A stretch of 9,651 nucleotides of DNA from a bacterium (GTDB taxonomy: Bacteria > JALSQH01), in assembly GCA_026985515.1 (NCBI GenBank), contig JALSQH010000178.1, positions 1 through 9,651 of the forward strand. The letters are read 5' to 3'. This document shows, piece after piece, positions 1,049 through 1,763 of the stretch. The notes under the pieces were generated by a model. It did not search any database. It saw only the letters and a list, made by a program, of their open reading frames with translations, and had not been told where the DNA came from. The position numbers and the translations under genes are program-made. The stretch's first letter is position 1, and every line of letters begins with the position of its first letter.

Positions 1049-1279
1049 ATGGCTCTCATGATTACAGAAGAATGCATCAATTGTGGGGTCTGCGAACCTG
1101 AATGTCCCCATGAAGCAATCAGCCCGGGTGATGATATCTACGTAATTGACCCCAATAAGTGCATTGAGTGTACAGACCAGGATCCACCAGAACCAAGATG
1201 CGTTCAGGTATGTCCTGTTGATTGTATCGTAGTCAATCCTGATGTTCCAAGACCAGAAGGTGCTCACTGGGAACCTTAA
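1049..1279 (+). CDS. 2[4Fe-4S] ferredoxin, Allochromatium (Alvin) type
   Basis: This 76-aa soluble electron carrier has nine cysteines. The first motif is C9-x2-C12-x2-C15-x3-C19. The second is C38-x2-C41-x9-C51-x3-C55. By family rule C9, C12, C15 and C55 hold one cluster, and C38, C41, C51 and C19 hold the other. Cys59 is the extra cysteine also seen in Allochromatium vinosum ferredoxin, whose N-terminus (ALMITDECINC...) is nearly identical to this one. The family's x7-9 insertion between the second and third cysteines of motif two is present, here as a proline-rich loop (DPPEP). The C-terminal helix of the Allochromatium protein is missing: only 17 residues follow Cys59, ending in PEGAHWEP. 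The family provides low-potential electrons to various oxidoreductases. No partner is encoded nearby. It has its own promoter, Shine-Dalgarno and terminator, and its 3' end overlaps the possible start region of the next ORF. Confidence 0.95.
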
Positions 1280-1763
1280 GGAAACCATCCTGAGGGGGGT
1301 TCTTTTACTCCCCCTCATTCTTTTTATATCCCTATCATCGTGTGGAAAGCATCGTCCAGAAAAAAAAGAAGGATATTTTTATCTCACAAAAGGGCAGGCC
1401 ATTCAGCAGGTGAAACTCTACTATCCAGATCTTGCTAAATTTCAGGAGTGCAGTCGCCCTCCAGATGAAATATGCTCCTGGGAGGATATCTTTATCTTTG
1501 ATGATCCGGAAAAAAATGAACAGTATGACCTGGTCTTCAGAGATGGAAATGGCAGGATTGAGAAAATTGGTTTGGAAAAAGAGGTTTTTCTGGTAGCATA
1601 TTATTACTACTTCACAGTCACAAAAAGCAGCGGGGATGTTGTTAAAAAGGGCACTTTTGAAAAGAAACTGCTTCAGAAAACAGAGAATGGCGCACTTTTT
1701 GAGTGTTCCGGGAAAACTTTCTGGGGTATTCCTGTTACTTCTGATTGCAGTGTTTTCCACTAA
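1242..1763 (+). CDS. Small lipoprotein of unknown function; start uncertain
   Basis: The frame encodes a convincing lipoprotein: a hydrophobic run ([12 protein letters not shown]), lipobox LSS and Cys34 when counted from ATG 1242, then a charged mature part of about 140 aa with a Tyr-rich segment near the middle (VAYYYYFTV) and four further Cys. No known domain was recognised. The start is unclear. ATG 1242 and GTG 1260 lie within the ferredoxin gene and lack a good Shine-Dalgarno. A rare CTG at 1290 has TAAGGAA (1277-1283) six bases upstream and would give an ideal 18-residue signal sequence with a single Arg. The signal-peptide codons coincide with the ferredoxin terminator hairpin (1291-1317). 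The 3' end overlaps the next gene by 77 nt in another frame. Since the next gene looks like an outer-membrane barrel, the two may work together at the cell envelope, but that is inference. Confidence 0.72.
1291..1327 (+). terminator. Intrinsic terminator after ferredoxin, inside the lipoprotein signal-peptide codons
   Basis: TGAGGGGG (1291-1298) pairs perfectly with CCCCCTCA (1310-1317). The stem is 8 bp with six G-C pairs and an 11-nt loop, followed at once by TTCTTTTTAT (1318-1327). It begins 12 bases after the ferredoxin stop, the normal position for a terminator. The same bases encode the hydrophobic core of the next ORF's signal peptide, so it may act as an attenuator for the downstream chain of genes. 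Confidence 0.8.

Follow-up and report, generated by a model that had tools for sequence, protein, structure and literature searches.

The rpsU-dnaG-rpoD operon of Escherichia coli contains an internal intrinsic terminator that sets unequal expression of its genes. Internal termination has also been described in the archaeon Methanococcus maripaludis, where it is reported to occur in 38% of operons (PMC10450193). Other terminators are controlled by ribosomes; pyrBI and the leader peptides of amino-acid biosynthesis are cited as examples (PMC4824070). When a ribosome occupies a stop codon within about 27 nt of a downstream terminator, that terminator is repressed in E. coli; this repression is almost full at a spacing of 8-9 bp, and termination efficiency goes from 0.12 to 0.8 at 17-18 bp (PMC4824070). 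In E. coli, a location in the first 100 bp of a coding region does not prevent a terminator from working, and one placed 30 bp past the start codon is functional (PMC4824070). A short distance between stop codon and terminator serves as a proxy for runaway transcription (PMC7858274), which is also accompanied by a purine bias (PMC13323073).

The locus described here lies in a stretch of 9,651 nucleotides (the window), which is contig C178 of a 2.36-Mb draft genome (G000) that is 97.6% complete. Its genes encode, in order, a class II aldolase, a ferredoxin, a lipoprotein and a DUF481 protein, followed by mnmA, mtaB, rnc, era and der. It is probable that a hairpin just past the ferredoxin gene is a leaky terminator of that gene, which also limits read-through into the lipoprotein, DUF481, mnmA, mtaB, rnc and era genes. 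Comparisons were made with a single other genome of the same phylum (G001), using stretches that total approximately 0.93 Mb from G000 and 0.32 Mb from G001. G001 shares the gene order from DUF481 to der and through two additional genes. The contigs of G001 stop within the aldolase gene (C36) and within the last 28 codons of the DUF481 gene (C140), and the ferredoxin-lipoprotein interval is absent from them; no close match to either the ferredoxin or the lipoprotein was found in the sampled part of G001. An MnmA-based scan of genome contigs returned only relatives from other phyla, at 30-37%, and was set aside.

The hairpin past the ferredoxin stop codon

The class II aldolase gene (422-1000) lies 5' of a gene encoding a YfhL-type 4Fe-4S dicluster ferredoxin (1049-1279, + strand), which was recognized by NCBIfam NF033683 (92.4 bits against a cut-off of 86) and Pfam Fer4. 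The hairpin (1291-1317, + strand) begins 11 nt past the ferredoxin stop codon (TAA, 1277-1279), within a frame that is open from 1242 to 1763. Its perfect 8-bp stem is formed by TGAGGGGG (1291-1298), which pairs perfectly with CCCCCTCA (1310-1317). Directly 3' of the stem is the U-tract TTCTTTTT (1318-1325, + strand), which is not a pure T-run but has T at seven of eight positions. The initial annotation had described a perfect 8-bp stem and T-rich tail that double as signal-peptide codons of the next lipoprotein, and this was confirmed.

Folded alone, the hairpin has an energy of -17.3 kcal/mol (z = -3.7), which was equalled by one of 200 shuffles; across analyses the stem energy ranged from -14.7 to -17.3 kcal/mol. 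The terminator score, which combines stem energy and U-tract, was 20.3. Per kb and strand, the genome sample contained 0.0187 sites scoring at least 20, compared with 0.0033 in first-order Markov sequence with matching dinucleotide composition. The hairpin shows a GC-rich stem, an immediate U-tract and placement after a gene end, as expected of an intrinsic terminator. A plain consensus scan of the window was unconvincing alone, since the window (9) did not exceed shuffled sequence (10.1) in its number of terminator-like sites. An Rfam search of the window gave no match, and the hairpin was therefore rejected as a member of a known RNA family. Close to the contig end (9613-9642, - strand), the window holds another terminator-like structure, a 12-bp G+C-rich stem with a AATTTTATTA tail.

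The genome contains 18 further hairpins of the same type. A recurring form among its strongest terminators is a stem in which five or six G pair with C, just past a stop codon. The pattern AGGGGG-(2-14)-CCCCCT was found at 19 places in G000 and at 12 in G001, versus two occurrences of a reversed control pattern in each genome. Apart from the hairpin itself, G000 has 18 copies, of which 14 lay near a gene stop (at -1 to 28 nt); in G001, all 12 did (at 1 to 31 nt). A strong terminator was found after 22 of 763 stop codons in G000 and after 17 of 240 in G001, compared with one and none, respectively, at mid-gene control points. Given this pattern near stops, the hairpin is most simply the predicted terminator of the ferredoxin gene, of the genome's standard type and, as a terminator, ordinary. 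An AGGGGG...CCCCCT hairpin in the first codons of dnaB in G001 (L111, 1519-1537; contig C210), 6 nt past a gene stop, lacks a U-tract and was set aside.

The frame across the stem reads as a lipoprotein signal peptide, the core of which is encoded by the stem. A signal peptide of this kind might form a hairpin by chance and with no terminator involved, because codons for Lys or Arg followed by Leu run from purines to pyrimidines, which favours hairpins, and occasional ones are expected from recoding. However, when the 17 residues were recoded synonymously with the codon usage of the genome, just five of 20,000 trials reached the terminator score of the hairpin, and both its type and its position agree with the genome's own terminators. 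A chance hairpin is thus extremely improbable. The recoding result shows that the stem is not a by-product of Leu and Pro codons, and it favours selection on the RNA, with a codon choice beyond the need of the protein. A second lipoprotein of the same genome (L023; BLASTP E 3e-7) has a near-identical signal peptide, in which MKFKFLVTGVLLLPLLFFMSSCG precedes a stretch similar to that of the window, and this supports real use of the lipoprotein frame. In this paralogue, TTA and CCA codons are used for GVLLLPL (GTTTTATTATTACCATTA), and both the C-run and the stem are absent. In a compact genome, the stem and U-tract would double as the opening codons of the lipoprotein; a 5' arm rich in purines, followed by a pyrimidine-rich 3' arm and U-tract, would read naturally as Arg and Gly and then as a run of Leu, Pro, Ile and Phe.

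Start of the lipoprotein gene and translational control

The lipoprotein gene (1290-1763, + strand; frame open from 1242) has signal-peptide codons at 1290-1340 and a lipobox cysteine at 1341-1343. Its mature part has weakly coding-like hexamers, with a poor hexamer score near the start, and no homologue of the protein was found outside G000. Translation most likely starts at the CTG codon at 1290-1292 (+ strand), at the foot of the stem, as suggested by spacing, ribosome-binding site and signal-peptide length. This start yields a signal peptide of 17 residues, whereas ATG 1242 and GTG 1260 would give 33 and 27 residues, respectively; across 15 other sampled lipoproteins, the signal peptide ranges from 16 to 23 residues (median 18). 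The sequence TAAGGA (1277-1282, + strand), which includes the ferredoxin stop codon, is the likely ribosome-binding site (-6.1 kcal/mol, with a spacing of 6 to CTG 1290). Neither ATG 1242 nor GTG 1260 has a Shine-Dalgarno match, their energies being -2.8 and -2.2 kcal/mol compared with a median of -3.3 kcal/mol at random in-gene positions and -8.4 kcal/mol at real starts. CTG is a rare start codon, and because of this unusual codon we infer the start rather than assign it. If it is right, one may speculate that the stem would also hide the start codon on terminated transcripts, which lack a stop codon.

The position of this start bears on a translation-controlled attenuator, as had been proposed in the initial annotation. 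According to that proposal, a ribosome started at ATG 1242 or GTG 1260 would cover the stem and permit passage of RNA polymerase, which would tie expression of the ribosome-assembly genes to translation; a ribosome finishing the ferredoxin at 1279 could act in the same way. The latter variant would work if transcription and translation were coupled, and the distance of 11 nt between stop codon and stem falls in the range where a ribosome at a nearby stop represses a terminator in E. coli (PMC4824070). The former variant is not supported, as the two upstream starts have no ribosome-binding site and lead to over-long signal peptides. Moreover, in E. coli a terminator remains functional 30 bp past a start codon (PMC4824070), and ribosomes from 1242 or 1260 are thus not expected to help polymerase through. 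The start that does have a likely ribosome-binding site, CTG 1290, is at the stem itself, and no usable start was seen from which a ribosome would cover the stem in time. Neither an alternative antiterminator structure nor regulatory codons were seen, local folding being dominated by one stem.

Coupling itself is also doubtful in this lineage. In the samples of both genomes, the median distance from stop codon to stem is 5.5-6 nt and the purine content of the sense strand within genes is 0.55-0.56, values that fit runaway transcription with ribosomes too far behind to act on the terminator. These sequence proxies suggest that RNA polymerase outruns ribosomes here, which adds sequence evidence for uncoupled transcription and translation in a deep-branching lineage. 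The termination factor Rho is encoded in G000 (TIGR00767). Based on these proxies and on the starts that lack a ribosome-binding site, control of the terminator by translation is considered very unlikely.

Promoters and transcription of the downstream genes

A promoter model was built by expectation-maximization from 158 upstream regions of G000, seeded with the sigma-70 consensus. The model converged on blocks similar to TTGACA-16/17-TATAAT, and the median best score was 4.58 in upstream regions compared with 0.78 in coding regions. The best site on the + strand between 380 and 2700 is a candidate sigma-70-type promoter, TTGCGG-16-TATAAT (983-1010, + strand; score 6.11, matched by 1.6% of 120-nt coding pieces). 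It lies right before the ribosome-binding site of the ferredoxin (AAAGGAGGT, 1033-1041, + strand), which has an energy of -12.5 kcal/mol with the 16S tail and is located 7 nt before the ATG at 1049. Between 1049 and 2541, no sigma-70-like site above chance was found by this model, which covers such sites only (best score 3.73, with a chance probability of approximately 0.77).

Downstream of the lipoprotein gene is a gene for a DUF481 outer-membrane-type protein (1636-2541, + strand; Pfam PF04338, E 4e-15), the end of which adjoins mnmA in G001 as well. Its true start is probably at 1687 or 1699, neither of which has a ribosome-binding site. With either of these signal-peptide starts, the DUF481 frame overlaps the end of the lipoprotein gene (within 1636-1763) by at least 65 nt. 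The following genes, all on the + strand and all over the cut-offs of the models named, are mnmA (2541-3575; NF001138 and TIGR00420), mtaB (3566-4855; TIGR01579), rnc (4827-5525; TIGR02191), era (5522-6448; TIGR00436) and der (6555-7901; TIGR03594). The initial annotation had these genes overlapping without a gap up to 7901, which is incorrect; a gap of 106 nt (6449-6554) separates era from der, and a gap of the same size is found in G001 (L018, 5569-5674). Its statement that no internal promoter was visible holds for 1049-2541; further downstream, a fair promoter-like site is present inside era (6258-6285; score 5.8, with 2.2% of 120-nt coding pieces scoring as high). This site may serve der. 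The promoter model and gene order do support its placing of the terminator between the only clear promoter and the genes from mnmA to era.

With no recognizable promoter separating the terminator from mnmA, transcripts of the genes up to era would most simply come from read-through that begins at the ferredoxin promoter. The ferredoxin mRNA would be short and probably abundant, extending from approximately 1016 to 1325 and ended by the hairpin. Termination would be incomplete, with some RNA polymerases passing the hairpin and transcribing the lipoprotein, DUF481, mnmA, mtaB, rnc and era genes. The terminator would in this way fix a ratio in which ferredoxin is plentiful and the downstream products are scarce. 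We infer termination, leakiness and the dependence of the operon on read-through; the hairpin, its position, the gene order, the codon choice and the absence of a recognizable promoter as far as 2541 support this reading, and the strong ribosome-binding site of the ferredoxin also counts in its favour.

The strength of the stem could also indicate a complete terminator, in which case the operon would have its own promoter inside the ferredoxin or lipoprotein gene, missed by the sigma-70 model. Promoter models do miss many real promoters, and half of the upstream regions score less than 4.58. Against such a promoter is not only the lack of a match above chance in 1049-2541 but also its geometry; transcripts starting upstream of 1291 would carry the same terminator in their leader, and a start downstream of 1318 would deprive the lipoprotein of its signal peptide. 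A complete terminator with a separate operon promoter is thus rather unlikely, and a leaky ferredoxin terminator is the preferred explanation. If the operon does depend on read-through, this terminator determines how much MnmA, MtaB, RNase III and Era is made. Such dose control would sit in codons that gene finders treat as ordinary protein sequence.

Other lipoprotein junctions and described systems

The first codons of open reading frames in the sample, with starts assigned mechanically, were scanned for a terminator score of at least 19. A strong terminator was present in four of 290 frames with a hydrophobic start, compared with 0.17 expected from synonymous recoding, and in one of 702 other frames. 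All four encode lipoproteins, although one stricter lipoprotein definition missed L024, and the fair count is three because the window was chosen for having this feature. L024 (G000, contig C1) is a stronger case of the arrangement in the window. An 11-bp stem with TTTTACTTTT (approximately 16654-16680, - strand) lies in MKESRLRRVSSILTLLLLLSC, within the signal-peptide codons of a 406-residue lipoprotein and 15 nt past the stop of another lipoprotein gene, which overlaps by ATGA. In L155 (G001, contig C17), a 12-bp stem with T8 (approximately 825-853, - strand) lies in MEELVVSSSIFFLILLFVSGC, within the signal-peptide codons of a SurA/PpiC-like lipoprotein and 30 nt past the stop of a PpiC-type gene. 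In L166 (G001, contig C8), the stem is weaker and located at the start codon, and no coding-like gene end was found upstream of it. Clear junctions thus number three, in two genera (the window, L024 and L155).

Terminators in lipoprotein signal-peptide codons might be a recurrent device of this lineage, in which the terminator of the upstream gene and the export signal of the next are one sequence, a tentative generalization that is still somewhat unlikely. If it is true, the device would lower expression of an envelope gene and its followers without spending intergenic DNA. If such sharing is common, a class of terminators would escape any predictor that ignores matches within coding sequence, and the choice of signal-peptide codons would carry a second meaning. 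A literature search with limited terms returned no relevant paper on terminators in signal-peptide codons, and one may exist. What merits follow-up in these results is the overlap of terminator and signal-peptide sequence seen at three junctions.

Compared with operon-internal terminators such as that of rpsU-dnaG-rpoD, the window is similar in that a terminator separates a first gene, probably abundantly expressed, from essential genes further downstream. It differs in that the terminator lies inside the signal-peptide codons of the next gene, and its leakiness is a prediction. The tR2/W48 construct (PMC4824070) likewise has a terminator tens of nucleotides past a start codon and close behind an upstream stop. 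That arrangement was engineered, whereas the present one is natural and its codons encode a signal peptide common to a paralogue. As in ribosome-controlled attenuators, the terminator overlaps translated sequence upstream of an operon; in contrast to them, no leader peptide with regulatory codons, no antiterminator stem and no evidence of a pause site were seen at this locus. Terminators lie a few nucleotides past stop codons in Bacillus subtilis, among other species with runaway transcription (PMC7858274, PMC13323073), and the predicted terminators of both genomes studied here resemble them in this position, as do the genes in being purine-rich.
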